64,000 bases of DNA, taken from assembly GCF_017357245.1 (NCBI RefSeq), contig NZ_CP071612.1, positions 1,367,001 to 1,431,000 on the forward strand, written 5' to 3'. Each line of letters opens with the position of its first letter. The first letter of the stretch is position 1. Below are positions 13,577 through 63,562 of the stretch, piece by piece. Source of the DNA: Rhizobium bangladeshense (GTDB lineage: Bacteria; Pseudomonadota; Alphaproteobacteria; Rhizobiales; Rhizobiaceae). The position numbers and the translations under genes were made by a program. The notes under the pieces are model-generated. The model did not search any database. It was given only the letters and a program-made list of their open reading frames with translations, and was not told the DNA's origin.

Positions 13577-13768
13577 CTCCGGGAGCCAGATCACTGTAAG
13601 ACGTGTTCCCTGAAAGAAGATCGACCGAACATTGCGCGGGGCGGGCGCAGGCTAGCGTTTGTTCGCATCTGTCTGTCAAAAGCCGAAAGGCCGGCGGCTG
13701 CATTTCTTCTGGTGAAAACTCAAAAAACCCTTGCATTCACAGATCGCTCACCCTAGTTAGGCCGCACC

Positions 13769-43194: not shown

Positions 43195-43342
43195 CAAAGG
43201 TCCCTAGCCGTTTATCCCAAGACACAGGATCTCCGGCGCGTTATGCCGGAGATGTTCCTCAACGCAGCTTCGGAGATACGCGACCGCCTGTATCGGCTTA
43301 CCCATGACCGCTTCCACCATTGCGACACAGGCTTTTCGTGGG

Positions 43343-45201: not shown

Positions 45202-48200
45202 ATGTATCGCAACGCTCGCCGGTGGACCTCGCGCTCACTTCTGCTGGATTCGTTGATGCCCCGGTGGTTGAGCGTCGGCGGAAAGGGAAAACCGCGCAAG
45301 CCTGCCGAAAGGCGTAAGGATAGTGCTCAACTTGCGGCATCCGCGCAGAGCGCGGAAGCAAACAAGCACGGTAATCTCGTCGCCAATCCCGATCATGATG
45401 CGGCGCTCGGCGAGCATGATGCTGGACAGAGAGCGGGGGTGATCGGCGGCGCGGACGCTCCGGCCGACATTGACCGCGCAGCACCGTCCTTGCCCTATGC
45501 TTTCAAAACGATTGGCGAAAAGGGAGTTCGAGGCGGTGATGTCGCCGCGTCTGTGCTATCAGCTCATATGCCGGATTTTGCGCGGTTCCAGGGGCGCGCG
45601 GATGGAGTTGCTTTCGGGGCTGAGTCGTCCCTTCAGCGCACCTACCCTGGAATGAGCGCCATCGGTGATGATCCGCTGGCTCCCTATCTGCCGCAAAGCC
45701 CTGCACCGACAGCCTCCGGGCAAGATTCTGCAGCGGCGATCGGGGCGCTTGCGCACTCGGGCAAGGTCGTCATTCTCGAATCGACACCGTCAACGCAGGC
45801 GACTGCGCATGAAGCCGGCGCCAGTTCACTGGCGTTTGGCATGCCCTTTGGTGTCTGCGGATGCGGCTATTTTACCTCGCCCGTGCGGATGCTCGATTGG
45901 GCTCACGGCGGCGCCATGCTTCAGCCGGACGGCCAACTGCCGGGAACCAGGCTGACCGAGGGGCCGGACTTTGTATCGACGATCAAGCGTGCCATCGGTG
46001 CCTCGATCAGCGACCCGCTTCTCGATCGTGATTTATCCCCTCTCTCGGGCTGGCGCGGAACCGCAAGCTGGCGGGAATCAACGGTCCTCACCGGATCGTT
46101 GCCAGGCGGCGGAGAGACCGGAACGGGCTCCGCCAAATCGAAGGGCATCGGCATCCTTTCCGGCTCAGTGACGATGCCGCCTTCCCCACAGCAGCGGTCG
46201 CTGACAACGCAAAATCTGGCGGCCGCGGCGGCGGCCAACAACATAATCGTGCTGGAAAACCAGAAGCAGGGCAACCCGGAGAGCGAGTGGGGCATCGACG
46301 GTGCTGGCAGCTCCAACATCGAGGGTTTTGCGACCGACATCAGCGTCGATAACGGCAAGACGATCAGCTTCAAGATCAATACGAATTCCACCAATTATCG
46401 GATCGATATCTATAGGCTCGGCTATTACGGCGGCATGGGCGCCCGCAAGGTCCACACCATTCAGCACACCGGATTGCAGACGCAGCCCACTCCGCTGCGC
46501 AACGCCTCGACCGGCACGGTGGATGCCGGCAATTGGGCAGTCTCGGCGTCGTGGACTGTACCAGAGGACGCGGTCTCAGGCGTCTATATCGCCAAGCTGG
46601 TGCGTCAGGATGGCACCTCCGGCCAAAATCATATCCCGTTCATCGTGCGTGACGACGACAGCCGCAGCGACATCGTCTTCCAGACCGCAGATCAGACCTG
46701 GCAAGCTTATAACGGCTGGGGTGGCGCAAACTTCTATGGCGGCAACGGACCGGCGACGGGGCAGGGAGCTGGCCGTGCCTATGCAGTCAGCTACAACAGA
46801 CCGATCGCGACCCGCGGTGGCGTGGGAACCGTTGCTGGCCCGCAGGACTATCTCTTCGGCGCCGAATACGCAGGCATCTATTGGCTGGAGCAGAACGGCT
46901 ACGATGTCTCGTATCTATCGGGTGTGGACGTCGACCGCTACGGCAGCCTGTTGCTCAATCACAAAGCCTATATCGATGCCGGGCATGACGAATACTGGTC
47001 GGGCCAGCAACGCGCCAATGTCGAAGCCGCCCGTGACGCGGGGGTTAACCTGCAGTTCTGGAGCGGCAACGAGGTCTATTGGCGCACCCGCTGGGGCAAT
47101 GCCTATAGCGCCGATGCCACGCCTTACCGCACGCTGATCTCCTATAAGGAGACCTGGTCGCCGGGCGCCAGCATCGACCCTTCCAACGAATGGACAGGTA
47201 CTTTCCGTGATCCGCGCCTCAGCCCACCCGCTGTCGGCGGCGGTAATCCGGAAAACTCACTGACTGGGCAGCTGTTCCAGGTTGACGACGTCGGCAGCAA
47301 TCTCCAGGCGATCACTATTCCCTATGACGATGCCAATTTGCGTTTCTGGCGCAATACGAGCGTCGCCAATCTTCAGCCCGGCCAGACGGCGACGCTCACC
47401 AAGAACTATCTTGGTTACGAGTGGGACGAAGCCCCCGACAACGGCTTCGATCCGGCCGGCCTAGTCAAGCTGTCTTCGACGACGGTTCCTGTAAGCACCT
47501 ACCTGCTCGACTATGGCAACACCACCGGCAATGGCGTCTCGACCCATAATTTGACGCTCTATCGCGCTCCGAGCGGAGCGCTGGTGTTCGGTGCCGGTAC
47601 CGTCTACTGGACATGGGGCCTGAGCGACAATCACGACCTCACGGCGACTCCGACGGACCCGCGCGTGCAGCAGGCAATGGTCAACTTGCTTGCCGATATG
47701 GGCATTCAGCCCGGGACGCTGCAATCCGGGCTGGTCGCCGCGACGGCTTCGTCGGACCAGGTTGCGCCGACCTCCGTCATAACGGTGCCAGCAACGGCGA
47801 CCGTCGGATCCACCGTTACGATTACAGGCACCGCTGCCGACACGGGCGGCGGGGTGGTCGCCGGCGTCGAGGTTTCCACCGACAATGGCGCAAGCTGGCA
47901 TCCAGCGACAGGCGATGAGAACTGGACCTATCGCTGGTCGCCGCAGGCCGTCGGTAGCTATACGATCCTGTCCCGTGCCGTAGACGACAGCATCAATCTC
48001 GAAGCACCCTCGGCTGGTCGCACGGTTACCGTCAGTGGGCCAAGCTACACGTCTCTCTTCGGCGCGGCGACTCCGGCCGTCGTCAATACAAACGATACGT
48101 CAGCCGTCGAACTCGGGGTCCGCTTCCAAACCTCTGTGGCTGGGACTGTCAGCGGCATTCGCTTTTACAAGGGAAGTCAGGACACCGGTACGCATACAGG

Positions 48201-51200
48201 TTCACTCTGGTCTAGCACCGGCACGCGGATCGCGACTCTCACCTTTGCCAACGAGACCGCCAGCGGCTGGCAGACCGCGTATTTTTCCAGTCCTGTGGCT
48301 TTGACGCCCGGACAGACCTACACGGCGTCGTACCACACGAATGTCGGTCGTTACTCGACAACCACCAACTATTTCGTCTCGAACGTAACGAGTGGGCCGC
48401 TGACGGCACCGGCGAGCGGTAATGGCGTATATAGATACGGTAACAACAGCCTGTATCCTACTGCCAGCTTCAGCGCGACGAATTACTGGGTCGACGTGAT
48501 GTTCAATCCCTCGTCCTCGAACACGACGCCGACGGCAGTTGCCGATGCCGGGGATGCGACGGAGAAGGGCGGCGTTGCCAACGGCTCGGGCGGCGTGTTG
48601 GCCAGCGGCAACGTCTTGACCAACGACACCGATCCGGATGCCGGCGACACCAAGACGGTGACGGCGGTCCGCTTCGGCACGACATCAGGCACGCTCGGCG
48701 CAGCGCTGAACGGCACCTATGGCAGTCTGGTGCTCAATGCATCGGGCGCCTATAGCTATGCCGTCAACGAGTCCAATGCCGCCGTGCAGGCGCTGCGCCA
48801 GTCGACCAACACGCTGAGCGACGTCTTCAGCTATACGATGCGCGATACTGCCGGCGCCACCGCCACGGCAAACCTCACCATCACCATCCACGGCGCCAAC
48901 GACGCGCCGGTGCTCGCCGTCCAGACGGCTGGCCAGAACGCCACCGTCGGCTCCGCCTTCTCCTTCACGCTGCCGACGACCACCTTCAGCGATGTCGACA
49001 GCGGCGACACGCTGACCTATGCGGCAACCGCTGCCGATGGCACGGCGCTGCCCTCTTGGCTCACCTTCAATGCCTCGACGCGCACCTTCAGCGGCACGCC
49101 GACGGCAACCGGCACCTATGGCGTCCGGGTGACGGCGACCGATCTCGGCGGCCTCGCCGCCAACGAGACCTTCAATATCGCCGTGTCGACATCAGGCAAC
49201 ACGGCGCCGACGGCGGTTGCCGATGCCGGGGATGCGACCGAGAAGGGCGGCGTTGCCAACGGCTCCGGCGGTGTTGCGGCCAGCGGCAACGTCTTGACCA
49301 ACGACACCGATCCGGATGCCGGCGACACCAAGACGGTGACGGCGGTCAGCTTCGGGGCGACGTCAGGCACGCTCGGCGCAGCGCTCAGCGGCGCCTATGG
49401 CAGTCTCGTGCTCAACGCATCAGGCGCCTATAGCTATGCCGTCAACGAGTCCAATGCCGCCGTGCAGGCGCTGCGCCAGTCGACCAACACTCTGAGTGAT
49501 GTCTTCAGCTACACGATGCGCGACGCTGCCGGCGCCATCGCCACGGCAAACCTCACCATCACCATCCATGGCGCCAATGACGCGCCGGTGCTCGCCGTCC
49601 AGACGGCGACCCAGAACGCCACCGTCGGCTCTGCCTTCTCCTTCACGCTGCCGACGACCACCTTCACCGATGTCGACAGCGGCGACACGCTGGCCTATGC
49701 GGCAACCGCCGCCGACGGCACGGCGCTGCCCTCTTGGCTGAGCTTCAACGCCTCGACGCGCACCTTCAGCGGCACGCCGACGGCAGCCGGAACCTACGGC
49801 GTCAGGGTCACGGCGACCGATCTCGGCGGCCTCGCCGCCAACGAGACCTTCAATATCACTGCGACAGTGGCGCCGGCGACCTACAGCCTGTTCAACGCTT
49901 CCAGCACACCGGCCCAGACGAACCTCAACGACGGGCAGCAGCTCGAGCTCGGCGTCAAGTTCCAGTCGAACGTCGCCGGTGATGTCACCGCCATTAAGTT
50001 CTACCGCAGCGCCAACGACAACGGTCAAAACGTCGTCGACCTGTGGACTTCCACCGGCACCAGGCTCGCCACCGCCACCTTCAGCAACACCACGGCGAGC
50101 GGCTGGCAGACGGTGAACTTTGCAACACCCGTCACCATCGCCGCCAACACAACCTATGTCGCCTCCTACCACACAACAGGCGCCTACGTGGCGACCAACA
50201 ATTTTTATACGGCCGCAGTCACCAACGGTCCGTTGACGGCTCCGTCGAGTGCCGCCGCCGGCGGCAACGGCGTCTACCGTTATGGCGGATCCGCCACCAC
50301 AGGCATTTTCCCGAATGCCACCTATAATGCTGCCAACTATTTTGCTGATGTGGTTTTCCGTCCCTCGTCCCCGAACACGACGCCGACGGCAGTTGCCGAT
50401 GCCGGGGATGCGACGGAGAAGGGCGGCGTTGCCAACGGCTCGGGCGGCGTGGTGGCCAGCGGCAACGTCTTGACCAACGACACCGATCCGGATGCCGGCG
50501 ACACCAAGACGGTGACGGCGGTCCGCTTCGGCACGACATCGGGCACGCTCGGCGCAGCGCTGAACGGCACCTATGGCAGTCTGGTGCTCAATGCATCGGG
50601 CGCCTATAGCTATGCCGTCAACGAGTCCAATGCCGCCGTGCAGGCGCTGCGCCAGTCGACCAACACGCTGAGCGATGTCTTCAGCTACACGATGCGTGAC
50701 ACTTCAGGCGCTACCGCCACGGCAAACCTCACCATCACCATCCACGGCGCCAACGACGCGCCGGTGCTCGCCGTCCAGACGGCTGGCCAGAACGCCACCG
50801 TCGGCTCCGCCTTCTCCTTCACGCTGCCGACGACCACCTTCAGCGATGTCGACAGCGGCGACACGCTGACCTATGCGGCAACCGCTGCCGATGGCACGGC
50901 GCTGCCCTCTTGGCTCACCTTCAATGCCTCGACGCGCACCTTCAGCGGCACGCCGACGGCAACCGGCACCTATGGCGTCCGGGTGACGGCGACCGATCTC
51001 GGCGGCCTCGCCGCCAACGAGACCTTCAATATCGCCGTGTCGACATCAGGCAACACGGCGCCGACGGCGGTTGCCGATGCCGGGGATGCGACCGAGAAGG
51101 GCGGCGTTGCCAACGGCTCCGGCGGTGTTGCGGCCAGCGGCAACGTCTTGACCAACGACACCGATCCGGATGCCGGCGACACCAAGACGGTGACGGCGGT

Positions 51201-52233
51201 CAGCTTCGGGGCGACGTCAGGCACGCTCGGCGCAGCGCTCAGCGGCGCCTATGGCAGTCTCGTGCTCAACGCATCAGGCGCCTATAGCTATGCCGTCAAC
51301 GAGTCCAATGCCGCCGTGCAGGCGCTGCGCCAGTCGACCAACACTCTGAGTGATGTCTTCAGCTACACGATGCGCGACGCTGCCGGCGCCATCGCCACGG
51401 CAAACCTCACCATCACCATCCATGGCGCCAATGACGCGCCGGTGCTCGCCGTCCAGACGGCGACCCAGAACGCCACCGTCGGCTCTGCCTTCTCCTTCAC
51501 GCTGCCGACGACCACCTTCACCGATGTCGACAGCGGCGACACGCTGGCCTATGCGGCAACCGCCGCCGACGGCACGGCGCTGCCCTCTTGGCTGAGCTTC
51601 AACGCCTCGACGCGCACCTTCAGCGGCACGCCGACGGCAGCCGGAACCTACGGCGTCAGGGTCACGGCGACCGATCTCGGCGGCCTCGCCGCCAACGAGA
51701 CCTTCAATATCACTGCGACAGTGGCGCCGGCGACCTACAGCCTGTTCAACGCTTCCAGCACACCGGCCCAGACGAACCTCAACGACGGGCAGCAGCTCGA
51801 GCTCGGCGTCAAGTTCCAGTCGAACGTCGCCGGTGATGTCACCGCCATTAAGTTCTACCGCAGCGCCAACGACAACGGTCAAAACGTCGTCGACCTGTGG
51901 ACTTCCACCGGCACCAGGCTCGCCACCGCCACCTTCAGCAACACCACGGCGAGCGGCTGGCAGACGGTGAACTTTGCAACACCCGTCACCATCGCCGCCA
52001 ACACAACCTATGTCGCCTCCTACCACACAACAGGCGCCTACGTGGCGACCAACAGATTCTTCACGAATGGTGTCTCGAACGGCCCGTTGACGGCTCCGTC
52101 GAGTGCGGCTGCCGGCGGCAATGGCGTCTACGCCTATGGCGGATCCGCAACAACGGGCCTCTTCCCGACCAGCACCTACGATTCGGCAAATTACTATGCC
52201 GATGTGGTCTTCCGACCGCAGCTTGCTTCGTGA
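45202..52233 (+). CDS. Giant secreted repeat protein with dimethylformamidase-beta-like domain
   Basis: The protein has 2,343 residues from the ATG at 45202 (GAGAGGT upstream). Order: an N-terminal low-complexity region (1-340) without a Sec signal; a domain like the N,N-dimethylformamidase beta subunit (about 343-850; GHDEYWS at 594-600, FWSGNEVYW at 619-627); an Ig-like domain (852-945); DUF4082 (946-1103); two 226-residue VCBS plus Ig-like units (1108-1559); a second DUF4082; two more VCBS/Ig units (1726-2177); and a third DUF4082. VCBS and DUF4082 domains are known from large exported adhesins. The downstream type I transporter is the likely exporter, though no RTX nonapeptides are present. 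The enzymatic substrate is unknown. Confidence 0.85.
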   Translation: MYRNARRWTSRSLLLDSLMPRWLSVGGKGKPRKPAERRKDSAQLAASAQSAEANKHGNLVANPDHDAALGEHDAGQRAGVIGGADAPADIDRAAPSLPYAFKTIGEKGVRGGDVAASVLSAHMPDFARFQGRADGVAFGAESSLQRTYPGMSAIGDDPLAPYLPQSPAPTASGQDSAAAIGALAHSGKVVILESTPSTQATAHEAGASSLAFGMPFGVCGCGYFTSPVRMLDWAHGGAMLQPDGQLPGTRLTEGPDFVSTIKRAIGASISDPLLDRDLSPLSGWRGTASWRESTVLTGSLPGGGETGTGSAKSKGIGILSGSVTMPPSPQQRSLTTQNLAAAAAANNIIVLENQKQGNPESEWGIDGAGSSNIEGFATDISVDNGKTISFKINTNSTNYRIDIYRLGYYGGMGARKVHTIQHTGLQTQPTPLRNASTGTVDAGNWAVSASWTVPEDAVSGVYIAKLVRQDGTSGQNHIPFIVRDDDSRSDIVFQTADQTWQAYNGWGGANFYGGNGPATGQGAGRAYAVSYNRPIATRGGVGTVAGPQDYLFGAEYAGIYWLEQNGYDVSYLSGVDVDRYGSLLLNHKAYIDAGHDEYWSGQQRANVEAARDAGVNLQFWSGNEVYWRTRWGNAYSADATPYRTLISYKETWSPGASIDPSNEWTGTFRDPRLSPPAVGGGNPENSLTGQLFQVDDVGSNLQAITIPYDDANLRFWRNTSVANLQPGQTATLTKNYLGYEWDEAPDNGFDPAGLVKLSSTTVPVSTYLLDYGNTTGNGVSTHNLTLYRAPSGALVFGAGTVYWTWGLSDNHDLTATPTDPRVQQAMVNLLADMGIQPGTLQSGLVAATASSDQVAPTSVITVPATATVGSTVTITGTAADTGGGVVAGVEVSTDNGASWHPATGDENWTYRWSPQAVGSYTILSRAVDDSINLEAPSAGRTVTVSGPSYTSLFGAATPAVVNTNDTSAVELGVRFQTSVAGTVSGIRFYKGSQDTGTHTGSLWSSTGTRIATLTFANETASGWQTAYFSSPVALTPGQTYTASYHTNVGRYSTTTNYFVSNVTSGPLTAPASGNGVYRYGNNSLYPTASFSATNYWVDVMFNPSSSNTTPTAVADAGDATEKGGVANGSGGVLASGNVLTNDTDPDAGDTKTVTAVRFGTTSGTLGAALNGTYGSLVLNASGAYSYAVNESNAAVQALRQSTNTLSDVFSYTMRDTAGATATANLTITIHGANDAPVLAVQTAGQNATVGSAFSFTLPTTTFSDVDSGDTLTYAATAADGTALPSWLTFNASTRTFSGTPTATGTYGVRVTATDLGGLAANETFNIAVSTSGNTAPTAVADAGDATEKGGVANGSGGVAASGNVLTNDTDPDAGDTKTVTAVSFGATSGTLGAALSGAYGSLVLNASGAYSYAVNESNAAVQALRQSTNTLSDVFSYTMRDAAGAIATANLTITIHGANDAPVLAVQTATQNATVGSAFSFTLPTTTFTDVDSGDTLAYAATAADGTALPSWLSFNASTRTFSGTPTAAGTYGVRVTATDLGGLAANETFNITATVAPATYSLFNASSTPAQTNLNDGQQLELGVKFQSNVAGDVTAIKFYRSANDNGQNVVDLWTSTGTRLATATFSNTTASGWQTVNFATPVTIAANTTYVASYHTTGAYVATNNFYTAAVTNGPLTAPSSAAAGGNGVYRYGGSATTGIFPNATYNAANYFADVVFRPSSPNTTPTAVADAGDATEKGGVANGSGGVVASGNVLTNDTDPDAGDTKTVTAVRFGTTSGTLGAALNGTYGSLVLNASGAYSYAVNESNAAVQALRQSTNTLSDVFSYTMRDTSGATATANLTITIHGANDAPVLAVQTAGQNATVGSAFSFTLPTTTFSDVDSGDTLTYAATAADGTALPSWLTFNASTRTFSGTPTATGTYGVRVTATDLGGLAANETFNIAVSTSGNTAPTAVADAGDATEKGGVANGSGGVAASGNVLTNDTDPDAGDTKTVTAVSFGATSGTLGAALSGAYGSLVLNASGAYSYAVNESNAAVQALRQSTNTLSDVFSYTMRDAAGAIATANLTITIHGANDAPVLAVQTATQNATVGSAFSFTLPTTTFTDVDSGDTLAYAATAADGTALPSWLSFNASTRTFSGTPTAAGTYGVRVTATDLGGLAANETFNITATVAPATYSLFNASSTPAQTNLNDGQQLELGVKFQSNVAGDVTAIKFYRSANDNGQNVVDLWTSTGTRLATATFSNTTASGWQTVNFATPVTIAANTTYVASYHTTGAYVATNRFFTNGVSNGPLTAPSSAAAGGNGVYAYGGSATTGLFPTSTYDSANYYADVVFRPQLAS
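48523..50376 (+). repeat. 1,854-bp tandem unit, copy 1
   Basis: It encodes VCBS-Ig, VCBS-Ig and DUF4082. Copy 2 follows directly with an exact offset of 1,854 bp. Identity is nearly complete until about 50197, after which the DUF4082 end diverges. Inside the unit the two VCBS-Ig parts repeat with a 678-bp period (48523 and 49201). Confidence 0.92.
50377..52230 (+). repeat. 1,854-bp tandem unit, copy 2
   Basis: This is the second copy of the unit starting at 48523. From about 52052 it differs from copy 1 (AACAGATTCTTCACGAAT in place of AACAATTTTTATACGGCC), and the last part is the C-terminus of the protein. Confidence 0.92.
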
Positions 52234-52272
52234 TGCATTGATAAGACCAGGTACGGGCTGAATGAGGGTGAA

Positions 52273-53520
52273 ATGCTCCCCGCTGCGACGGTCGCTCCGA
52301 ATGCCCACTTTCAAGGGATGCTGATGAACAGGGTGATGAACAGGAAGGGCCGGCTCCCGGTGACAGTGCTTGCCGGTTTTCTCGGCGCCGGCAAGACGAC
52401 GCTTCTCCGCCACGTGTTGACCAACCGTCAGGGCCTCAGGGTCGCCGTCATCGTCAATGATATGAGCGAGGTGAACATAGACGCGAGTCTCATTCGAGAC
52501 GGTGGCTGCAACCTGTCGCATACGACGGAGACATTGGTCGAACTCAGCAATGGCTGCATATGCTGTACCCTGCGCGACGACCTCCTGACGGAAGTGCGGC
52601 GACTGGCCGAAGAGGGGCGATATGATTATCTGCTGATAGAAGGGACCGGCATTGCCGAGCCATGTCCGATCGCGGCAACCTTTTCATTCCGCGACGAGAA
52701 TGGTGTTTCGCTCTCCGATTTTGCGAAACTTGATACGATGGTGACCGTTGTCGATGCTGCAAGCCTCCTGGCCGACTACAGCAGCGCCGACCTGCTTCGC
52801 GATCGCGGCCTGCAGCGGGACGGCGAGGACCGGCGAACACTCATCGATCTGTTGGTGGACCAGATCGAGTTTGCCGATGTTGTCGTGATCAACAAGATCT
52901 CGAACGCCACCGAGGAGATCCGCGCGGAAGTCCGCAAGACCGTGGCTGCACTCAACCCGGATGCGCGCCAGGTGGAGACGGACTTCGGCAAGGTTTCTCT
53001 CGCGTCCATCCTCAATACGGGCCTCTTCGACGAAGCGAAAGCCGCCGCTCACCCGTTGTGGCACAAGGAACTGTACAGCCCGGGCGACCATGTTTCGGAG
53101 ACGGAGGAATACGGGGTATCGAGCTTTGTCTATCGAACGAGGCGCCCCTTCGATCCCACGCGGTTTCGAGCATTCCTGGACGAGCCCTGGCCGGGGGTCA
53201 TCCGTGCCAAAGGCCATTTCTGGCTTGCGACGCGACCGCGTCACGTGGGTCTGATGTCGGCTGCCGGGGCGCAACGGCGCTGCGAACCCATGGGACTTTG
53301 GTGGGCGGCCGTTCCCCGACAGGACTGGCCAAGCCATCAGCAGTTTCGTCAGCAGATCGAGCGCCGGTGGGACAGCGCCTGGGGCGACCGTCGGCAGGAG
53401 CTCGTTTTCATCGGTGTTGATATGGACGAGACAGGCGTCCGGACCGCGTTGGACGACTGCCTGGCCAGCGCGGATCCGCGGGACTGGTCGGCTCTCGAAG
53501 ATCCATTTCCGGCCTGGTAG
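52273..53520 (+). CDS. COG0523 (CobW/G3E) GTPase, copy 1
   Basis: The protein has 415 residues from the ATG at 52273 (GAGGGTGAA upstream; ATGs at 52318, 52324 and 52336 are alternatives). The Walker A motif is [17 protein letters not shown], the family metal-binding CxCC is [16 protein letters not shown], and Walker B-like [11 protein letters not shown] follows. The C-terminal CobW_C domain contains [22 protein letters not shown] and [13 protein letters not shown]3E GTPases hand metals such as zinc, cobalt or iron to target proteins. The guanine-specificity motif reads NKIS instead of NKxD. It follows the giant protein by 39 bp, so it should be cotranscribed. Confidence 0.9.
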
Positions 53521-53737
53521 CGCGGCGCAGCGCGGGAGACTACAGGCTCGACTGGCCGAACCGGCAAAACAAGACCGACGAGCTTCCTTTTCACCCAGCG
53601 CCCGCGGCTTAGCGGGAGCATCAGGCAGCTTGAGGCCTGTCGATCGGAGGCGCGGCGAGATCATCATATGGGCGTATGGAGGTACCACCCACATACCCAA
53701 GATTGCTGTCGTACGTTCCGTTTCGAAAGCTGGCAGG

Positions 53738-56700
53738 ATGAAGTCATTCAATGCTGGTCGACGGGAAACGGGGACGCCGCTCTTGCTGAGATTTCATGTC
53801 AGGAATCGCAAATATCTCACTATGGCCGGCGGCACGCCGTGCATCAGTCACGCAACCTCGGCCTGGACTGCACTGCTTGGAACACCGGCCGTAGTGTCTT
53901 CGAGCACTCAGGCTCCATTCGGCCTCGCCAACCAGGGCAGTGCAACCGTCCAATCCTCCTTCACCGGCATGACCGAAACGCCCCTGATATTTTCCGGCGA
54001 AATGCAAGCGTCCCTGTCGCCGACGGCGATGCCGGCGCCCGGGGGAGATGGCGGCGCGCAAGACAGTTTGATCCAGACGGCGACGGTTGCAACGGTGTTC
54101 CAGACGCCTACCTCGATATCGGAGCGCACCGTGCTTGGCCCGGATCCGTACGAGGAGGCTGCGACACTGCCTGCCGCTCCTGTGCTCACGGGTGTTACCA
54201 GCGATGCCGACACTGGAAGCGCCGAGACGGCTGCGCCTGTCAGTTCCGACAGCACCCTCGGCACGACCTCCCTGCGTCTTCAGGCCTCGATAGCATCCCT
54301 CTCGGTGGAGCCGAGTGAGGAGGTTTCTACTGAGACGACCGCGGCTTCGCCGGCACCGGTGGCGGCCGCTCCGGCCGTGCCGACGCTCAACAAGATCGCG
54401 CTCGAAAACCTGAAGCAGGGCAACCCGATCAGCGAATGGGGGCTAGAGGGCGATGGCAAGGGCACCATCCAGGGTTTCGCCACCGAAATCAGCACGAATA
54501 TCGGCCAGACGGTCGATTTCAAAATCGCCACGGATTCTACCCATTACCGCATCGATATCTACCGCATGGGCTACTACGGCGGTGCCGGCGCGCGCAAGGT
54601 CGATTCGATCGAACAGCAGCTGACCACGGCGCAGATCCAGCCGCATCCGATCGTCGACATGTCGCTCGGCCTCATCGATTGCGGCAACTGGTCGGTTTCC
54701 GCCAGCTGGCAGATCCCTGCCGACGCCGTCTCCGGCGTCTATTTCGCCAAGCTGGTGCGAGAGGACGGCACCGAGGATGCGAGCATCATTCCCTTCGTCG
54801 TGCGCGACGATGCCTCGACCAGCGATATCGTCTTCCAGACGTCGGATACGACCTGGCAGGCCTACAATGCCTGGGGCGGCGCCAGTCTCTATTACGGCGA
54901 AGTGCCCGTCGACCCGGCGGACATGATCGGCTACCTGCCGCCGAACTGCAGTTGCGGCCTGACGGCGATCGGCCGGGCGTCGGCGGTGAGCTACAACAGG
55001 CCGATCATCACCAATACGAGCCCGATCGGCGGCTCGCACGATTATATCTTCGGCGTCGAATCCTCTGCAATCTCCTGGCTGGAGCAGAACGGCTACGACG
55101 TGTCCTATATCTCGGGCGTCGATGCCACGCGCAGCGGCGCGCTGCTGCTCAACCATGATGCCTATCTCTCCGTCGGCCATGACGAATACTGGTCGGCCGA
55201 GCAACGCGCCAATGTCGAGGCGGCTCGCGACGCCGGTGTGAACCTCGCCTTCTGGAGCGGCAACGAATGCTACTGGAAGGTCCGCTGGGAAAGCAGCATC
55301 GACGGCAGCGGCCAAGCTTACCGCACCATGGTCTGCTATAAGGAGACCTGGGGCACGAGCACGGACCCGAGCAATGTCGGCACCGGCACCTGGCGCGACC
55401 CGCGTTATGCCGATCCGGGGCAGGAGCCGGAGAATTCGCTGACCGGCACCATGTTCCAGGTGGACAGCTACCGCCAGGATACGATCTCGATCCCCTACGA
55501 CTATTCGAACCTGCGCTTCTGGCGCAATACCGATGTCTCCCAGCTGAATGAAGGCGACACCTACAATCTGGTGCAGAACCTGCTTGGCTACGAGTGGGAT
55601 TCCGATGTCGAGAACGGCTTCCGGCCGGACGGTCTCATCAACCTGTCGCTCTCCTCCATCGCGGTCAGCACCTATCTGCGCGACTACGGCACTACGGTTG
55701 GCGACGCGGTGGCGACCCACAGCCTCACCATGTATCGGGCCGAGAGCGGCGCGCTGGTCTTCGGCGCCGGCACCGTTTTCTGGTCCTGGGGCCTGAGCGA
55801 CAACCACCAGGGCCCGGCAACATCGACCGATCGCAACGTGCAGCAGGCGATGGTCAACATGTTCGCGGACATGGGCATCCAGCCGACCACGCTCGATGCA
55901 AGCCTGATCCTGGCGACCCAGTCGACCGACACTCTAAAGCCGACTTCGTCGATCAGCTCGCCCATCGTGGGCGCAAGCTTCGTCGAAGGACAGCGCGTGA
56001 CGATCACGGGCACGGCGCAAGACTTTGGCGGAGGCATCATCGCCGGCGTCGAGGTCTCCACCGACGGGGGCCAGCACTGGTTCAAGGCGTCAGGCCGCGA
56101 GAGCTGGAGCTATAACTGGGTCGTCCAGGCAAGCGGTACTTATACGATCCTGTCGCGCGCCGTTGACGACAGCGTCAATCTGGAGGCGCCGTCGGCCGGC
56201 AAGCAGGTCACGGTCACTCTGCCGGGAACGACGACCAGCCTGTGGACGCTTGCCGAAAAGCCTACGGTCGAAACGGCGATCGATCGCGATCCGGTCGAGC
56301 TCGGCCTGCGTTTCCAGGCGACGACGGCAGGTTCGGTGCAGGGCATCCGCTTCTACAAGGGCTTCTACAATACCGGCGAACACGTCGTCAGCCTGTGGAC
56401 CGGTGACGGAACGCTGCTGGCGACCGGCGTGTCGGTGGGCGAACCGCTTTCCGGCTGGCAGACCGTGATGTTCTCCAGCCCGATCCAGATCGCGGCCGGT
56501 ACGACCTATGTAGCGTCCTATCACAGCAAGGGATTTTTCTCCCTCACCGAGAACTATTTCAACGGGTCCTATGCCAGCGGCGCACTGAAGGCCGTCGATG
56601 GCGGCGGCGTCTTCGCCTACAGCACCAATGCCGGCACATTCCCCGGCCAGAGCCCCGGCGGCTCCAACTATTGGGTGGACGTGGTCTTCGACGCCGGCCC

Positions 56701-58255
56701 GAACAGCCAGCCGGTGGCAACCGACGACAGCGGGCTGGTCATCGGCCACAACGGAACGCTTGTCATCTCGATTGCTGCACTCGTGGCAAATGATGTCGAC
56801 GCCAACGGCGATGCGCTGACCATCACCGCCGTCGGCAATGCCCTCAACGGCACGGTCGCTCTCAACAAGCAGGCCGGAACCATCACCTTCACGCCGGCCA
56901 ACAATTATTCAGGCCCGGCAAGCTTCACTTACACGCTGTCGGACGGGCGCGGCGGCGCGGACCAGGGCAGTGTCAGCCTGACCGTTCAGGCCGCTCCCGC
57001 CGGCGAGACCCTGTTTACCGGCAGCGAAGGACCGACGGGCGGCAGCTTCAACGACAATACGGCGATGGAACTCGGAATGAAGTTCGTCGCTTCCGCAAAC
57101 GGTGCGATCTCCGGCATTCGCTACTACAAGGCTGCCGGCGATACCAGTGTGCATACCGGCTCCCTTTGGAAGGCCGACGGCACACTCCTTGCGACGGTCA
57201 CTTTCACCAGCGAGTCGCTCTCCGGTTGGCAAACCGCGACCTTCTCGACACCGCTACAGATCACGGCGGGCGCGACCTATGTCGCCTCCTACCACACGAC
57301 CGGCACCTATGTCGCGACGACAGGCTATTTCAACACGGCGCATACCAACGGCTCGCTGACGGCGCTTGCAGGCAGCAATGGCGTCTACGCGGTCGGATCG
57401 GGCTCGACCTTCCCGACCTCCAGTTACCAGTCGACGAATTACTGGGTCGATGTCGTCTACAATCAGTCGACGGGCAATACGGTGCCGGTGGCTGCCAATG
57501 ACAACGGCTATACGACCTACACCAATACGGCTCTGTCGATCGCCGCTGCGAACCTGCTTGCAAACGACAGCGACGCGGATGGCGACCTGCTTGTCATCAC
57601 CGGCGCAGGCGGCGCGGTCAACGGTTCGGTGTCCTACGACAGCCAGACGCAGACCGTCACCTTCACGCCAACGGCAGGATATTCTGGGCCGGCGAGCTTC
57701 AGCTATTCCATCGCCGACGGTCAGGGCGGCACGGCATCCGCCCAGGTTTCGCTTACCGTCAACGCCCAGGGAAGCGAGCAGAACCTCTTCAGCGCCAATG
57801 AAACGCCTGCAATCGTCTCGGTGAACGATAACCAGCAGGTCAACCTGGGCATGAAATTTCAGGCCGACACGGCAGGCTGGATAACGGGCATCCGCTTCTA
57901 CAAGGGCGCCGAAAATACAGGCCCGCATAACGGCTATCTCTGGACCGCCTCGGGCACGTTGCTTGCAAGCGTCACCTTCAGCAACGAAACGGCAAGCGGC
58001 TGGCAGACCGCCACTCTCGCCCAGCAGATCGCGGTCGAAGCGGATACGACCTACGTCGTTTCCTACAGCACGAACGGCAATTACTCGGCGACCAGCAATT
58101 ACTTCAGCACCGGGAAGACGAGTGGCGACCTCAGGGCGCTCAGCGGCGACAATGGCCTTTATGCCTACGGATCGAGCGGGTTGTTCCCGACCAGCAGTTA
58201 CAACAGCACAAACTATTATGTGGACGTGGCGTTCAAACCGCAGCTCGCGGCGTAA
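53738..58255 (+). CDS. Second giant protein with dimethylformamidase-beta-like domain
   Basis: The protein has 1,505 residues from the ATG at 53738; the frame is open back to 53414, but that part overlaps the GTPase gene. Order: a Ser/Thr/Ala-rich N-terminal region (1-215) without a clear Sec signal; a dimethylformamidase-beta-like domain (about 217-730; GHDEYWS at 480-486, FWSGNECYWK about 505); an Ig-like domain (732-825); then DUF4082, cadherin-like (VATDDSGLVIGHNGTLVIS), DUF4082, cadherin-like (VAANDNGYTTYTN), DUF4082. It parallels the larger protein but has cadherin-like modules where that has VCBS units. Both end almost alike (VVFRPQLAS and VAFKPQLAA), which may be a shared export signal. 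Confidence 0.85.
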   Translation: MKSFNAGRRETGTPLLLRFHVRNRKYLTMAGGTPCISHATSAWTALLGTPAVVSSSTQAPFGLANQGSATVQSSFTGMTETPLIFSGEMQASLSPTAMPAPGGDGGAQDSLIQTATVATVFQTPTSISERTVLGPDPYEEAATLPAAPVLTGVTSDADTGSAETAAPVSSDSTLGTTSLRLQASIASLSVEPSEEVSTETTAASPAPVAAAPAVPTLNKIALENLKQGNPISEWGLEGDGKGTIQGFATEISTNIGQTVDFKIATDSTHYRIDIYRMGYYGGAGARKVDSIEQQLTTAQIQPHPIVDMSLGLIDCGNWSVSASWQIPADAVSGVYFAKLVREDGTEDASIIPFVVRDDASTSDIVFQTSDTTWQAYNAWGGASLYYGEVPVDPADMIGYLPPNCSCGLTAIGRASAVSYNRPIITNTSPIGGSHDYIFGVESSAISWLEQNGYDVSYISGVDATRSGALLLNHDAYLSVGHDEYWSAEQRANVEAARDAGVNLAFWSGNECYWKVRWESSIDGSGQAYRTMVCYKETWGTSTDPSNVGTGTWRDPRYADPGQEPENSLTGTMFQVDSYRQDTISIPYDYSNLRFWRNTDVSQLNEGDTYNLVQNLLGYEWDSDVENGFRPDGLINLSLSSIAVSTYLRDYGTTVGDAVATHSLTMYRAESGALVFGAGTVFWSWGLSDNHQGPATSTDRNVQQAMVNMFADMGIQPTTLDASLILATQSTDTLKPTSSISSPIVGASFVEGQRVTITGTAQDFGGGIIAGVEVSTDGGQHWFKASGRESWSYNWVVQASGTYTILSRAVDDSVNLEAPSAGKQVTVTLPGTTTSLWTLAEKPTVETAIDRDPVELGLRFQATTAGSVQGIRFYKGFYNTGEHVVSLWTGDGTLLATGVSVGEPLSGWQTVMFSSPIQIAAGTTYVASYHSKGFFSLTENYFNGSYASGALKAVDGGGVFAYSTNAGTFPGQSPGGSNYWVDVVFDAGPNSQPVATDDSGLVIGHNGTLVISIAALVANDVDANGDALTITAVGNALNGTVALNKQAGTITFTPANNYSGPASFTYTLSDGRGGADQGSVSLTVQAAPAGETLFTGSEGPTGGSFNDNTAMELGMKFVASANGAISGIRYYKAAGDTSVHTGSLWKADGTLLATVTFTSESLSGWQTATFSTPLQITAGATYVASYHTTGTYVATTGYFNTAHTNGSLTALAGSNGVYAVGSGSTFPTSSYQSTNYWVDVVYNQSTGNTVPVAANDNGYTTYTNTALSIAAANLLANDSDADGDLLVITGAGGAVNGSVSYDSQTQTVTFTPTAGYSGPASFSYSIADGQGGTASAQVSLTVNAQGSEQNLFSANETPAIVSVNDNQQVNLGMKFQADTAGWITGIRFYKGAENTGPHNGYLWTASGTLLASVTFSNETASGWQTATLAQQIAVEADTTYVVSYSTNGNYSATSNYFSTGKTSGDLRALSGDNGLYAYGSSGLFPTSSYNSTNYYVDVAFKPQLAA

Positions 58256-58273
58256 AGGCGAGCGGGGGTATCG

Positions 58274-59506
58274 ATGACAGGTGCAGACAATCGACTTCCG
58301 GTGACGGTCCTGGCGGGGTTTCTCGGCGCCGGCAAGACGACGGTGCTCAATCATGTTCTGCACAATTGTGAGGGATACCGGATCGCCGTGATCGTCAACG
58401 ACATGAGCGAGATCAACATCGATGCCGATCTCGTCCGTGACGACGGAGCCAACCTCTCGAGAACGGATGAAACCCTCGTCGAGCTTACCAATGGATGCAT
58501 CTGCTGCACCTTGCGTGACGATCTCCTGACCGAAATCCGGCGTCTCGCCGCCACGGGTCGTTTCGACTACCTTTTGATCGAGGGCACGGGGATTGCCGAG
58601 CCGCTGCCGATAGCGGCGACCTTCTCCTTCCGGGACGAGAGCGGAGCGGCGCTCTGCGATGTCGCGCGGCTCGATACCATGGTTTCCGTCATCGATGCGG
58701 TCAATCTTCTCGCCGATTATGCCAGCGCCGAGTTCCTCGCGGATCGCGGCGAAAGCCGGGACGGAGACGACAAGCGCAAGCTTGTGGAACTGCTCGTCGA
58801 GCAGATTGAATTTTCCGATGTCGTCATCATCAACAAGGCAGGTGATGTGTCGTGCGCGATTCTTGCCGAGGTCCGCCGGATCGTCGCGGCACTTAATCCG
58901 GATGCGCGTGTCATCGAGGCGGTGTTCGGTCAGGTGCCGCTTGGCGCGATCATGGATACCGCCCTCTTCAGTGAAGCCAAGGCCGCCCGCCACCCGCTCT
59001 GGCACAAGGAGCTTTACGGCTGGGGCGATCATGTGCCGGAGACCGAGGAGTACGGCATAACAAGCTTCGTCTATCGCAGGCGCCGGCCATTCGATCCCGC
59101 GCGGCTGAGCCGCATCCTCGAGCGGCCATTGCCCGGTCTCATCAGGGCGAAAGGCCATTTCTGGCTGGCCACCCGGCCGGACGAGATCGGCCTCCTGTCG
59201 ATTGCCGGCACGCAATGCCGCATTGACACCAGGGGGTTCTGGTGGGCCTCGGTGCCGCGGGCGCATTGGCCGCGTCATCCGCAATTCCGTAAGTTGCTCG
59301 ATCGCCATTGGGACGATGTCTGGGGCGACCGCCGCCAGGAGCTGGTCTTCATTGGCTCCGGCGTCGACGAGGAAGCCATCCGCACCGCGCTCGACGATTG
59401 CCTGATCGGAGAGGAGACGGGTTTTGATCCCCAGACAGCCGTCGGCCTTCGCGATCCGTTTCCGCCATGGCGGCACGATACGCACGCATCGGACCGGAAA
59501 GTGTGA
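58274..59506 (+). CDS. COG0523 (CobW/G3E) GTPase, copy 2
   Basis: This 410-residue paralogue of the GTPase at 52273 is alike along its whole length. Walker A is [17 protein letters not shown], CxCC is [16 protein letters not shown], then [40 protein letters not shown] and [18 protein letters not shown]. The NKxD position reads NKAG. It begins 18 bp after the second giant protein, repeating the giant-then-GTPase order exactly. The likely role is metal delivery or sensing; the metal is unknown and no Zur-like site was found. Confidence 0.9.
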
Positions 59507-59575
59507 AGCGGCTTTCGGTCCGATGCGTCGACTCAAAGGTGAACAGGTTTTGATTATCAACCAGAGGAGAGAACA

Positions 59576-59884
59576 ATGAGCAGCGAACTTTATGCGGACG
59601 GTATCGGCGAAATCACCGTCACGGGAACGATCGTGCGCATCGACCTGATGTCACTCTCGGCCACCGAGCGTGACGCCAACAACAATCCGAAGCCGGTTTT
59701 CCGCCAGCGCATCATCATGCCTATCGATGCCTTCGCCAATGCGGTCGATCTCATGCAGAAGGCGCTTGGCGGGTTGGTGGAGGCGGGTGCGGTTCGTCGC
59801 ATCGGTGACATGTCGGCCGCAGCAGCAGCTGATATCCAGGCGGTGCAGGGCAGCGCGTCGAACGCTTCGCCGAACTTCAACTGA
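59576..59884 (+). CDS. Small conserved-looking protein of unknown function
   Basis: The 102-residue protein has a strong AGAGGAGAGAACA ribosome site. The first 45 residues look like beta strands (YADGIGEITVTGTIVRIDLM), then VFRQRIIMPIDAFANAVDLMQKALGGLVEAG and an alanine-rich tail. No signal peptide is present. The RIIMPIDAFANAVDLM segment recalls DUF3467-type proteins (a strand, then a helix, VMSPEHAK-like), but I am not confident. Lying between the second GTPase and the ABC exporter, it may be an accessory or chaperone of the secretion system. Confidence 0.75.
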   Translation: MSSELYADGIGEITVTGTIVRIDLMSLSATERDANNNPKPVFRQRIIMPIDAFANAVDLMQKALGGLVEAGAVRRIGDMSAAAAADIQAVQGSASNASPNFN

Positions 59885-59972
59885 CAAACGGGTCTAGAGC
59901 GCAGCGCGTCGGTTCGGACGCGCTCCAACCTTTTGAAGCTAAGCCTCGGTCTCGTATCGTTTCGGGTGGGCC

Positions 59973-62117
59973 ATGAGTGATTTTCTGCATACCAATCTGC
60001 ACTGTCTTGCGTTCGTCGCGCGTCATCATGGCGTCGACCTATCCCCTGAGCGATTGCAGCACGATTACGCGGTCGGCAACGATCCCGTCGCCGTGCGGCG
60101 GTTGTTGCGGATGGCGAGGGATGCCGGCCTTCGGGCGAGGCACCTCAGCCTCGACTGGCAGTCACTGTTCCGGCTGGGCGAAGCATTTCCCGTGCTTGCC
60201 GAACTTACCAACGGCAATTGGGTGGTCGTCGCCGGGGCGGGGGGGAGCGGGGAGGACGAAAGAATACAAGTTCTCGACCCGCTTGCCACGCGCCCCGAGG
60301 TCATTCTCCTGAGCGAGGAGCAATTCGCCAAGGCCTGGTCCGGATCGGTGGTTCTCCTCAAGCGCAACTATCGCATGTCGGACGAGGATCGGCCGTTCGG
60401 GTTCCGTTGGTTCATACCGGAAATCATCAAGCAGCGAAGCTTCTTCCGCGACGTGGCGCTCGCGGCCTTCGTTCTTTACGGCCTCGGGCTGACGACGCCG
60501 ATGTTCTTTCAGCTCGTGATCGACAAGGTGCTCGTGCATCAGAGCTATGCGACGCTGACGGTTCTGACGGTAGGTATCGCGGTTGCGCTCGTCTTCGACG
60601 CTACATTCACTTTCCTGCGCCGGTATCTCCTGCTCTACGCGACCAACAGGATCGACATCAGGGTTGCGACACGCACATTCGGGCATTTGCTCAACCTGCC
60701 GATCGCGCTCTTCGAGCACGCCTCGGCCGGTGTTCTCGTCAAGCACATGCAGCAGACGGGGCGCATCCGCGAATTCCTGACCGGCCGGTTGTTCCTGACG
60801 CTTCTCGACGGCGTATCGCTCTTCGTCTTCGTGCCGATCCTGCTTCTCTACAGCGTCAAGCTGACGCTCGTGGTGCTCGGCTTCGCAGCACTCGTCGGGC
60901 TCGTCGTGATGATGCTCGTCGGACCGTTCCAGCGCCGTCTCCAGGCGCTCTACCAGGCGGAAGGCGACCGGCAGGCACTGCTGGTGGAAACCGTGCACGG
61001 CATGCGCACCGTCAAATCGCTGGCCCTGGAGCCGCGCCAGCGCAAGGTGTGGGACGACTATTCGGCGCAATCGATCTCGGTGCGCTTCCGGGTCGAGAAG
61101 ATATCTACAATCGCACAGGCGATGACAGGGCTTCTGGAGAAGCTGATGAGCGTTGCAATCATCGGGCTTGGCGCACTCGACGTGTTCTCCGGCGCTATGA
61201 CGATCGGCGCGCTAGTCGCCTTCAACATGCTCGCTGGCCGTGTCTCGGGACCGCTGGTGCAGATCGTCACCATGGTGCACGAATATCAGGAAGTGGCTCT
61301 GTCCGTACGCATGCTCGGCGAGATCATGAACCAGCGGCCGGAGCAGGCCGGACGCGGGCGCGGTGTGCGGCCGCATCTGCATGGCCGCATCGAATTCGAC
61401 CGGGTCACCTTCCGCTATGCTCCCGATACGGCGCCCGCGCTCGACAATGTCTCCTTCGCCATTCCGGCAGGCTCGGTCTTCGGCGTGGTCGGCAAGAGCG
61501 GCTCCGGCAAGACGACGATCACCCGGCTGATCCAGGGGCTTTACCAGAGCCAGGAGGGGCTGGTGCGCATGGATGGTTACGACAGCCGCGAGATCGACCT
61601 CGTGCACCTGAGAACCAGCATCGGAGTCGTGCTGCAGGACAATTTCCTGTTTCGCGGCACGGTGCGCGACAATATCGCCGCCGCAAAACCCGATGCCAGC
61701 ATCGAGGAAATCATGCAGGTGGCCCGCGTCGCCGGTGCGGAAGAGTTCATCGAGCGGCTGCCGCGCGGCTTCGACACGATGCTGGAAGAAAATGCCGCCA
61801 ATCTCTCCGGCGGCCAGAAGCAGCGGTTGGCAATCGCGCGCGCACTGATCACCGATCCGAAGCTTCTGATCTTCGACGAGGCGACAAGCGCGCTCGACCC
61901 CGACAGCGAGGCGATCATCCGCGAGAATCTGAGCCGGATCGCGGCCGGGCGCACCGTCGTCATCGTCTCGCACCGGCTTTCGACGCTTGTGGATGCCGAT
62001 GCCATTCTCGTCATCGATCGCGGCAAAGTCGCCGATATCGGCCGGCATGACCAGCTTGTGTCGCGCTGCATGACCTATCGCCACCTGTGGGCACAGCAAA
62101 TGAGGCAGGTCGCATGA
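59973..62117 (+). CDS. Type I secretion ABC transporter (HlyB-like)
   Basis: The 714-residue protein has a peptidase-C39-like domain (1-130), an ABC membrane domain (about 150-440) and an ATPase domain (470-714). Walker A is GKSGSGKTT (about 506), the signature is LSGGQKQRLAIARAL (about 611), Walker B is LLIFDEATSALD (about 632) and the H-loop is VIVSHRLS. In the C39-like domain the catalytic Cys position appears as His (NLHCLAFVARHHG) and the catalytic His region reads GNWVVVAGA. It should therefore be non-proteolytic, like HlyB, and recognise an uncleaved substrate. It is the presumed exporter of the two giant proteins. Confidence 0.92.
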   Translation: MSDFLHTNLHCLAFVARHHGVDLSPERLQHDYAVGNDPVAVRRLLRMARDAGLRARHLSLDWQSLFRLGEAFPVLAELTNGNWVVVAGAGGSGEDERIQVLDPLATRPEVILLSEEQFAKAWSGSVVLLKRNYRMSDEDRPFGFRWFIPEIIKQRSFFRDVALAAFVLYGLGLTTPMFFQLVIDKVLVHQSYATLTVLTVGIAVALVFDATFTFLRRYLLLYATNRIDIRVATRTFGHLLNLPIALFEHASAGVLVKHMQQTGRIREFLTGRLFLTLLDGVSLFVFVPILLLYSVKLTLVVLGFAALVGLVVMMLVGPFQRRLQALYQAEGDRQALLVETVHGMRTVKSLALEPRQRKVWDDYSAQSISVRFRVEKISTIAQAMTGLLEKLMSVAIIGLGALDVFSGAMTIGALVAFNMLAGRVSGPLVQIVTMVHEYQEVALSVRMLGEIMNQRPEQAGRGRGVRPHLHGRIEFDRVTFRYAPDTAPALDNVSFAIPAGSVFGVVGKSGSGKTTITRLIQGLYQSQEGLVRMDGYDSREIDLVHLRTSIGVVLQDNFLFRGTVRDNIAAAKPDASIEEIMQVARVAGAEEFIERLPRGFDTMLEENAANLSGGQKQRLAIARALITDPKLLIFDEATSALDPDSEAIIRENLSRIAAGRTVVIVSHRLSTLVDADAILVIDRGKVADIGRHDQLVSRCMTYRHLWAQQMRQVA

Positions 62118-63562
62118 ACGCGCGCGTCAGAAAATCCGGCGAAAACCTGCCCGTAGCCTCGGACCATAGCCCATCAGGCAAGGGGCCGCCAGGCAGGGGC
62201 GGGCAGCTCACCGCCCGCCTGCCGCTGCCGCCGGCAATCGCGGAATTCCAGTCCGACGCCGTCGAACTCGAGGAACGTGCTCCGCCGCGCGTTGCGCGCA
62301 TGACGCTCTATTGCGTGACGGCGCTGATTGCTGCGACCATCATCTGGGCCTCCGTCTCCGATATCGACGAGGTGGTGATCGCGCCCGGCAAGCTCGTCAC
62401 CACCCAGCCGACCATCGTCGTCCAGCCGCTCGAAACCTCGATCATCCGCACGCTCGATGTGAAGGCCGGCGAGGTGGTGCATGCCGGCCAGACGCTCGCA
62501 ACCCTCGACGCCACCTTCAGTCAGGCCGATGTCGACCAGCAGCAGGCGAAGTTCTCGGCTCTCGACGCCCAGGTGAAGCGCATCGAGGCGGAACTTGCCG
62601 GAGACGACTACACGATGATGGCGGGAACGACGCCCGACGAGATGCTGCAGGTGCAGCTCTTCGGCCAGCGGCGGGCCTTCTACACGGCGCAGCTGCAGAA
62701 TTTCGAGCAGCAGATCGCCGGCCAGTCGGCAGCGCTTGCCGCGGCCAAGAACCAGGAGGCCGTGCTCATCGACAGGCGCGACACGCTCTCGCAGATCGAA
62801 GGCGCGCGCACACGGCTCTACGACAAGCAGAGCGGCTCGCTGATCACCATGCTCGGATCGCGCGACGCCCGCCTCGACGTCGAGTCCGATCTGACGGCCG
62901 TTCGCGGCAAGGCCGACGAGGCGGCGCATGCCTATGCCAAGCTGAAAGCCGACCGGCAGGCCTTCATCGAGGATTTCCGCCGGGCAGCGATGGAGCAGCT
63001 GGTGGAGCTGCGCGGCCAGCGCGACATGGCGGATGAAGAGCTGAAGAAGATGGAGTTGCGCCGCAACATGGTGTCGCTGACAGCACCTGCCGATGCCGTC
63101 GTGCTCGATCTCGCCCAGCGCTCTATCGGCTCCGTCGTGCGCGAAGCCGAACCGATCGTCACGCTGGTGCCGATCAACGTGCCGCTCGAAGCGGAGGTGT
63201 CGATCAACACCCGCGACATCGGCCGCATTGCCGTGGGTAAGGAGGCTCGCATCAAGCTGGACGCCTATCCTTTCCAGAAATACGGCACCGCGTCGGGCGA
63301 AGTTCGCACCATCAGCCAGGACACGTTTATGACCGGCCAGCAGCAGGAACAGGCTGCCACCCCAAGCCAGCCGGCAGCGCCTTTCTTCAAGGCTCGCATC
63401 CTGCTTGCGGATACGAGGCTGAACGCCTCGGATGTGCCGGTCAGACTGCTGCCGGGCATGACCGTCTCCACAGAGATCAAGGTGGGCAACAGGACCGTGA
63501 TCTCCTATTTCCTTTACCCGCTGCTGCGTGGCCTTGATGATGCCATCCGGGAACCGAACTGA
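62114..63562 (+). CDS. HlyD-family membrane fusion protein of type I secretion
   Basis: The protein has 482 residues from the ATG at 62114, overlapping the ABC gene by ATGA. It has a cytoplasmic proline-rich N-terminus, one membrane helix (about 62-81, MTLYCVTALIAATIIW), a lipoyl-like start (VIAPGKLVTTQPTIVVQPLE), long coiled coils (about 140-315) and a barrel domain with LTAPADAVVLDLAQRSIGSVV, then PGMTVSTEIKVGNRTVISYF near the C-terminus. It links the transporter to an outer-membrane TolC, which is not encoded here. Confidence 0.93.
   Translation: MNARVRKSGENLPVASDHSPSGKGPPGRGGQLTARLPLPPAIAEFQSDAVELEERAPPRVARMTLYCVTALIAATIIWASVSDIDEVVIAPGKLVTTQPTIVVQPLETSIIRTLDVKAGEVVHAGQTLATLDATFSQADVDQQQAKFSALDAQVKRIEAELAGDDYTMMAGTTPDEMLQVQLFGQRRAFYTAQLQNFEQQIAGQSAALAAAKNQEAVLIDRRDTLSQIEGARTRLYDKQSGSLITMLGSRDARLDVESDLTAVRGKADEAAHAYAKLKADRQAFIEDFRRAAMEQLVELRGQRDMADEELKKMELRRNMVSLTAPADAVVLDLAQRSIGSVVREAEPIVTLVPINVPLEAEVSINTRDIGRIAVGKEARIKLDAYPFQKYGTASGEVRTISQDTFMTGQQQEQAATPSQPAAPFFKARILLADTRLNASDVPVRLLPGMTVSTEIKVGNRTVISYFLYPLLRGLDDAIREPN

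Follow-up and report, generated by a model that had tools for sequence, protein, structure and literature searches.

What do two giant proteins do in Rhizobium bangladeshense, and why is each followed by a gene for a COG0523 GTPase? We examined a window of 64,000 nucleotides (assembly GCF_017357245.1, contig NZ_CP071612.1, positions 1,367,001 to 1,431,000), to which all coordinates refer. The genes form a single row on the + strand: giant 1 (45202..52233), GTPase 1 (52273..53520), giant 2 (53738..58255), GTPase 2 (58274..59506), a protein of 102 amino acids (59576..59884), an ATP-binding cassette (ABC) exporter (59973..62117) and an HlyD-type adaptor (62087..63562). A first-pass annotation had described this repeated order of giant and COG0523 gene, with 18-39 bp between them, followed by a small protein and an ABC/HlyD pair. 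Open reading frames (ORFs) and a Pfam/NCBIfam domain scan bear this out. The gaps are 39 bp in pair 1 and 18 bp in pair 2, and the scan placed cobW and CobW_C in both GTPases, C39-like and ABC domains in the exporter and HlyD in the adaptor. The gene order is identical on pRL9 of Rhizobium johnstonii 3841, beside a similar row of polysaccharide genes. Hence, the order is not due to chance. The main point to emerge from these comparisons is that a dimethylformamidase (DMFase)-type, probably exported enzyme appears tied to an amino-sugar pathway across several phyla. We see about an even chance that the giants are exported iron amidases trimming a surface amino-sugar polymer, with the GTPase handling metal.

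Both giants match DMFA2_C (324.6 and 345 bits; cut-off 27). The DMFase-like cores occupy 46204..47763 (+) in giant 1, which was modelled, and 54359-55933 (+) in giant 2. In a structural aligner, the modelled core aligns with solved DMFase-type folds over 412-425 residues and shows the large-subunit fold of DMFase, minus domain II. That domain is pentraxin-like and comprises 264 residues (PMC7686228). It is too large for the 520-residue core and, therefore, is taken as absent from the giants. Residues equivalent to the ligands Tyr399, Tyr440 and Glu521, and to catalytic His519 and Asn547, are invariant across 74 aligned cores; they were mapped by hand, with the Tyr440 equivalent placed by eye owing to a variable insert. 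In giant 1 these are Tyr 46708-46710, Tyr 46735-46737, His 46984-46986, Glu 46990-46992 and Asn 47068-47070 (+). This pattern supports an iron site of two tyrosines and one carboxylate, which the first-pass annotation had cited for the dimethylformamidase of Paracoccus. The large subunit of N,N-dimethylformamidase from Paracoccus (6lvb) and N-acetyl-(R)-beta-phenylalanine acylase (8huy, 8i5a) share the fold, the 2-Tyr-1-Glu ligands and the His/Asn pair. In contrast to DMFase, the core of the giants is fused to repeats and probably exported, and its identity to solved enzymes is about 20%. The giants are thus predicted, from sequence and model, to be modular amidohydrolases with a DMFase-type Fe(III) site.

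The remainder of each giant consists largely of repeats. Giant 1 has an N-terminal extension, the core, three DUF4082 stretches, VCBS/cadherin/He_PIG repeats and a C-terminus ending FRPQLAS. Giant 2 has three DUF4082 stretches, Big_9/Cadherin_5 repeats and a C-terminus ending FKPQLAA. All six DUF4082 stretches are strong. The host genome (6.35 Mb) has two DMFA2_C matches, both in the window, and six DUF4082 matches, all inside the giants. DUF4082 is rare in the class, occurring in 2 of 240 genomes at E 1e-20, the host included. The ATG of giant 1 at 45202 sits inside an ORF that opens with TTG at 45184 (2349 amino acids from the TTG). The start of giant 2 is uncertain: its ORF opens at 53414, within the GTPase 1 gene, and the first ATG is at 53738. 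Within giant 1, between 48520 and 51351, are four near-identical 300-nt units, 93-100% alike and spaced 678, 1176 and 678 nt. These point to recent internal repeat exchange, and frame lengths differ among homologues.

Upstream of giant 1 lies an amino-sugar block that the first-pass annotation missed. On the + strand it comprises a hexapeptide acyltransferase (36113..36619; solved relatives include a WxcM-like protein and sugar N-acetyltransferases), a Gfo/Idh dehydrogenase (36616..37653), two DegT aminotransferases (37650..38753, with WbpE and QdtB among solved relatives, and 40388..41641, for which PseC is the best model, below cut-off), a second hexapeptide acyltransferase (38740..39459) and an NAD-dependent sugar epimerase/dehydratase (39456..40427). 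A Wzx-type flippase of the polysaccharide cluster (41686..43197) and a polysaccharide export protein (43343..44677) follow on the - strand. The best NCBIfam model for the dehydrogenase is UDP-GlcNAc 3-dehydrogenase, at 167 bits (cut-off 450).

We compared 79 named loci, drawn from the best 80 of 568, with flanks of 10 kb; 49 are alphaproteobacterial and 30 are not. A Gfo/Idh plus DegT block was found within 10 kb of the giant at 13 of the 30 non-alphaproteobacterial loci, 6 of the 49 alphaproteobacterial loci and none of 20 control regions, which were arbitrary coordinates from alphaproteobacterial giant-bearing genomes only. The 13 belong to Acidobacteriota (L092, L096, L101), Steroidobacteraceae (L103), Planctomycetales (L105) and Actinomycetota (L108, L109, L111, L119, L120, L122, L123, L125). 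Pfam scans covered 125 of 133 alphaproteobacterial flank proteins and all 127 others. Outside alphaproteobacteria, glycosyltransferase 2, hexapeptide, DegT and sugar-transferase families top the list. Inside, sugar-nucleotide and glycosyltransferase families do so, with at most 4 members of 125.

The association extends to whole genomes. The host has a single match to the dehydrogenase at E 1e-20. Exactly one match was found in 19 of 20 further giant-bearing genomes (E 1e-25), always with at least 349 bits. Including the host, 20 of 21 giant-bearing genomes carry the gene, compared with none of 32 giant-less genomes at that level; four of the latter have a paralogue of 100-140 bits. Giant-less here means no DMFA2_C match in a frame of at least 950 amino acids; for G318, G338, G350 and G389 it rests on their absence from the list of 82 genomes that have a DMFA2_C match. 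The dehydrogenase was also found in 0 of 10 genomes with only short DMFA2_C genes. The p value for this co-occurrence (1e-13) exaggerates its strength, because the genomes were hand-picked, not random, and are related.

Is the enzyme exported? The best model for the ABC protein is HlyB, at 684.9 bits. This is below the cut-off of 725.55 and, hence, we call the exporter HlyB-like. The adaptor scores 312.4 bits as HlyD (cut-off 208.65). By eye, Thr stands at the catalytic Cys position of the C39-like domain in the 14 rows inspected of 23. An exporter of GG-leader bacteriocins was rejected on this same basis. Most alphaproteobacterial giants with a complete end have the C-terminus ..DVxFrPQLxA, or near it, and no strong hydrophobic N-terminus; L074 and L186 are among the exceptions. 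Many actinobacterial giants have a hydrophobic N-terminus, and others had no ATG in reach. These termini were judged by a simple look at hydrophobicity, not by a signal-peptide predictor. The cassette shares the HlyD adaptor and a C39-like domain lacking the Cys with HlyB/HlyD type I secretion. It differs in that the window's giants have no RTX family match at E 0.001 and in the extra, conserved 102-amino-acid protein. The latter accompanies the exporter genes and has no Pfam or NCBIfam match at E 0.001. A 175-amino-acid metagenome protein, P0096, matches it over its full length and also contains a CobW_C domain; the end of a GTPase and the small protein may be fused or mis-called there.

AlgE epimerases are type I-exported enzymes that modify polysaccharides. 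PlyA and PlyB glycanases are likewise type I-exported and polysaccharide-modifying (PMC2275737). Like the giants, as proposed here, these enzymes are exported and act on a polymer of the cell that makes them; the reactions differ. A search of one literature library found no paper joining dimethylformamidase with exopolysaccharide or polysaccharide, nor COG0523 with type I secretion, and turned up one paper that mentions DUF4082. The word dimethylformamidase is absent from the main text of the COG0523 paper PMC2770081.

Alternatively, the giants could be adhesive or bacteriocin-like and leave the cell through a peptide exporter of their own, the core being a relic or merely structural. This was in part the proposal made in 2008 for pRL90159, pRL90161 and BltDE of R. 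leguminosarum 3841, described there as very large proteins with a repeated motif of about 140 amino acids to which no function was assigned (PMC2275737, available passages). Size, order and replicon, not a shared locus tag, identify these genes with locus L016. There too, two giants with such repeats stand upstream of an ABC/HlyD pair; the enzyme core, the GTPases and the amino-sugar link do not figure in the available passages of that account. The long VCBS/cadherin/Ig repeats of the window's giants, and a partial match to a large-adhesin model, would suit such a role. However, the five catalytic residues are invariant, the exporter best fits HlyB and lacks the C39 cysteine, and the giants are linked to an amino-sugar pathway. 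Our analysis lends no support to a bacteriocin and we regard the proposal as unlikely.

We next consider how firmly the GTPase and exporter are attached to the giant. Loci extending 1.5 kb or more beyond the giant were testable: 42 from alphaproteobacteria and 25 from elsewhere, with 7 of 49 and 5 of 30 set aside as cut. A GTPase adjoins the giant at 24 of the 42 alphaproteobacterial loci, an HlyB-like protein lies within 6.5 kb at 29 and the small protein is nearby at 27. The corresponding number at other loci is 0 of 25 in each case. Among the 42, there are 16 loci with both GTPase and exporter, 13 with the exporter only, 8 with the GTPase only and 5 with neither. Five of the GTPase-only loci end before the usual exporter position. 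The other three are from Bradyrhizobium; one (L055) has a distant ABC/HlyD pair nearby (141 and 66 bits). The small protein was found in 11 of 16 genomes or records searched, several of which lack it in the giant flank, and was missing from G516, G414, G523, G370 and one plasmid record. G309, G465 and G443, and the genomes that contain L056 and L057, have it at another place. In a survey of the genus (37 genomes including the host), a ZigA-type GTPase follows the core, on its strand and no more than 5 kb away, in 29 of 35 giant-type rows (frame of at least 1000 amino acids). Five of the remaining frames run off the contig end and one (G001) has no GTPase in the 14 kb covered. In a set of 61 genomes, no short DMFA2_C gene (e.g. 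G010:C12:60047 and G018:C4:163610; frames of 577-826 amino acids) was followed by a ZigA-type gene on its own strand and contig.

These counts do not fit a fixed module of enzyme, GTPase and exporter, as first envisaged: neither partner accompanies the 25 non-alphaproteobacterial giants, and many alphaproteobacterial loci have only one. The expectation that a COG0523 gene comes next in other genomes holds in Rhizobiaceae and several other alphaproteobacterial families, and fails outside them. Exporter and GTPase each occur without the other. Hence, the suggestion that the GTPase acts on the exporter is disfavoured, with five of the eight GTPase-only loci too short to tell. Judging from gene neighbourhoods, it is the giant, not the exporter genes, that the GTPase appears to follow.

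Might the GTPase be an obligatory cytosolic chaperone that loads iron, or another metal, directly onto the hydrolase? It forms a clade of its own, is co-inherited with the giant and is kept beside clade A giants with no exporter of this type in the flank. However, no non-alphaproteobacterial giant and only 24 of 42 alphaproteobacterial giants have it alongside, despite the invariant site, and type I substrates cross the membrane unfolded. We consider this role doubtful; the enzyme does not, as a rule, need help from a GTPase to acquire its metal.

A further possibility is that the GTPases serve general zinc homeostasis, the ZigA/YciC function, and are neighbours by operon convenience only. Both match the ZigA equivalog NF038288 over their full length (566.6 and 556.1 bits), below the cut-off of 600, and keep the CICC (CxCC) motif. 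The true start of GTPase 1 may be an ATG at 52318-52336 rather than 52273. The host's third ZigA-like gene, a canonical, box-bearing paralogue outside the window, scores 604.9 bits with the same model. In a tree of 74 rows, linked GTPases separate from 30 canonical ZigA genes and, for the most part, mirror the A/B split of the giants. Exceptions are L187, a clade B giant with an A-side GTPase, and L197, which falls amid canonical genes on a long branch. In a tree of 23 rows, 17 linked GTPases form one side of a branch with support 99.7. Distances between giants correlate with those between GTPases (Mantel r 0.79, 0/2000 permutations, n 39), partly through shared species history. A profile of linked GTPases gave 15 best matches of at least 737 bits in 297 genomes of the order, 14 of them by a giant and one where a contig begins; the following two score 724 bits and are not beside a giant, a gap favoured by building the profile from linked genes. 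The G516 GTPase, which is beside a giant, scores only 530 bits. In 61 genomes, 29 of the 34 ZigA-model matches of 556-573 bits are beside a giant, and the other 5 lie no more than about 1.1 kb from the start of a contig. A palindromic box, presumably that of Zur, precedes 24 of the 30 canonical genes, mostly of the same genus (scores 19-32). With the matrix from these genes, no site scoring at least 6 was found in the window, nor was a zinc box found there using a consensus sequence. At other loci longer than 10 kb, away from canonical genes, the top score was 18.5, about 1 kb upstream of the L115 giant (Akkermansiaceae), where there is no GTPase. Thus, the window's GTPases differ from ZigA/YciC in score, clade, box and neighbour. 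The idea of a dedicated COG0523 protein stands, in the form of a separate clade tied to the giant, and a housekeeping zinc role seems distinctly improbable. Two observations concern other ZigA-type genes. In G000:C1, near 2792.5 kb (L199 9523), the box of the canonical gene equals the genus consensus and a second strong box lies 1.3 kb upstream. At L197 (G516; 7696-13664), a divergent giant has a canonical-type ZigA GTPase directly upstream and an amino-sugar block about 8 kb away; this may be a second, independent recruitment, although the branches are long.

A catabolic role for the giant, gaining carbon or nitrogen from formamides or N-acyl compounds in the environment, is very improbable: a catabolic DMFase is among the nearest characterised relatives, but short DMFA2_C genes do not share the giants' co-occurrence with the dehydrogenase.

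The two pairs have separate histories. In a tree of 88 rows, the window's cores fall in different, strongly supported sets. Giant 1 (clade A) groups with Bradyrhizobium, Methylobacterium and others; giant 2 (clade B) groups with other Rhizobiaceae, Lutibaculum and relatives. Recent tandem duplication was rejected when the Rhizobium copies were forced together in 23-row trees (approximately unbiased test, p-AU 4e-50 for giants and 7e-5 for GTPases). Hence, describing the module as duplicated is misleading. Single giant/GTPase pairs occur, within the stretches seen, in Sinorhizobium sp. B11 (clade A) and Mesorhizobium albiziae (clade B).

Upstream of giant 1 is a promoter-like block of 42 bp (45075..45116, +), conserved strongly across 10 of the 11 rhizobial upstream regions that were aligned. 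Sought as a box common to polysaccharide operons, it occurs only once in the window and, therefore, does not show their co-regulation.

Several points weigh against a surface amidase acting on an amino-sugar polymer. At 43 of 49 alphaproteobacterial loci the 10-kb flank has no Gfo/Idh plus DegT pair, and G037 has a giant with no dehydrogenase orthologue. That orthologue lies within 45 kb of the giant in 14 of 20 genomes and on another contig, or more than 700 kb away, in 6. The co-occurrence is, therefore, not only physical linkage; among members of the genus, however, the cluster might travel as a single segment. With about 20% identity to solved enzymes, the substrate cannot be read off the core. 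DUF4082 has no solved relative by sequence, and sugar binding by it is a guess. The proposal does not account for the restriction of giant-side GTPases to alphaproteobacteria. Finally, mutation of bltD had no observed effect on supernatant proteins, according to the available passages of PMC2275737.

From the fold, residues, clades, linkage and co-occurrence we infer how the proposed amidase would work. For most alphaproteobacterial giants the exit route would be the type I cassette, and for many others Sec. The alphaproteobacterial giants, most of which end in the ..DVxFrPQLxA tail, would use the small protein, the HlyB-like exporter and HlyD. Iron would be bound outside the cell or during export. 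The enzyme would then remove N-acyl (formyl or acetyl) groups, or cut other amide bonds, in a polymer that includes the product sugar of the upstream block, while its DUF4082/VCBS/cadherin repeats may anchor it in the matrix. The GTPase, a ZigA paralogue without a Zur-like box and co-inherited with the giant, would be a cytosolic metal handler for it, ensuring that the site holds no metal, or the right one, until export; this is the weakest step.

More tentatively, and with clearly less confidence, the giants may be a new class of extracellular polysaccharide de-N-acylases, found in several phyla, with a 2-tyrosine-1-carboxylate iron site and a dedicated amino-sugar pathway. In alphaproteobacteria these would have their own exporter and a GTPase controlling metallation of a protein that is exported unfolded. 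The main proposal gives a testable function to giants filed as DUF4082 proteins or as bacteriocin-like. A COG0523 GTPase whose genetic partner leaves the cell would also offer a natural test of what such GTPases do. If true, the iron-tyrosinate amidase fold would extend from solvent breakdown to the cell surface.

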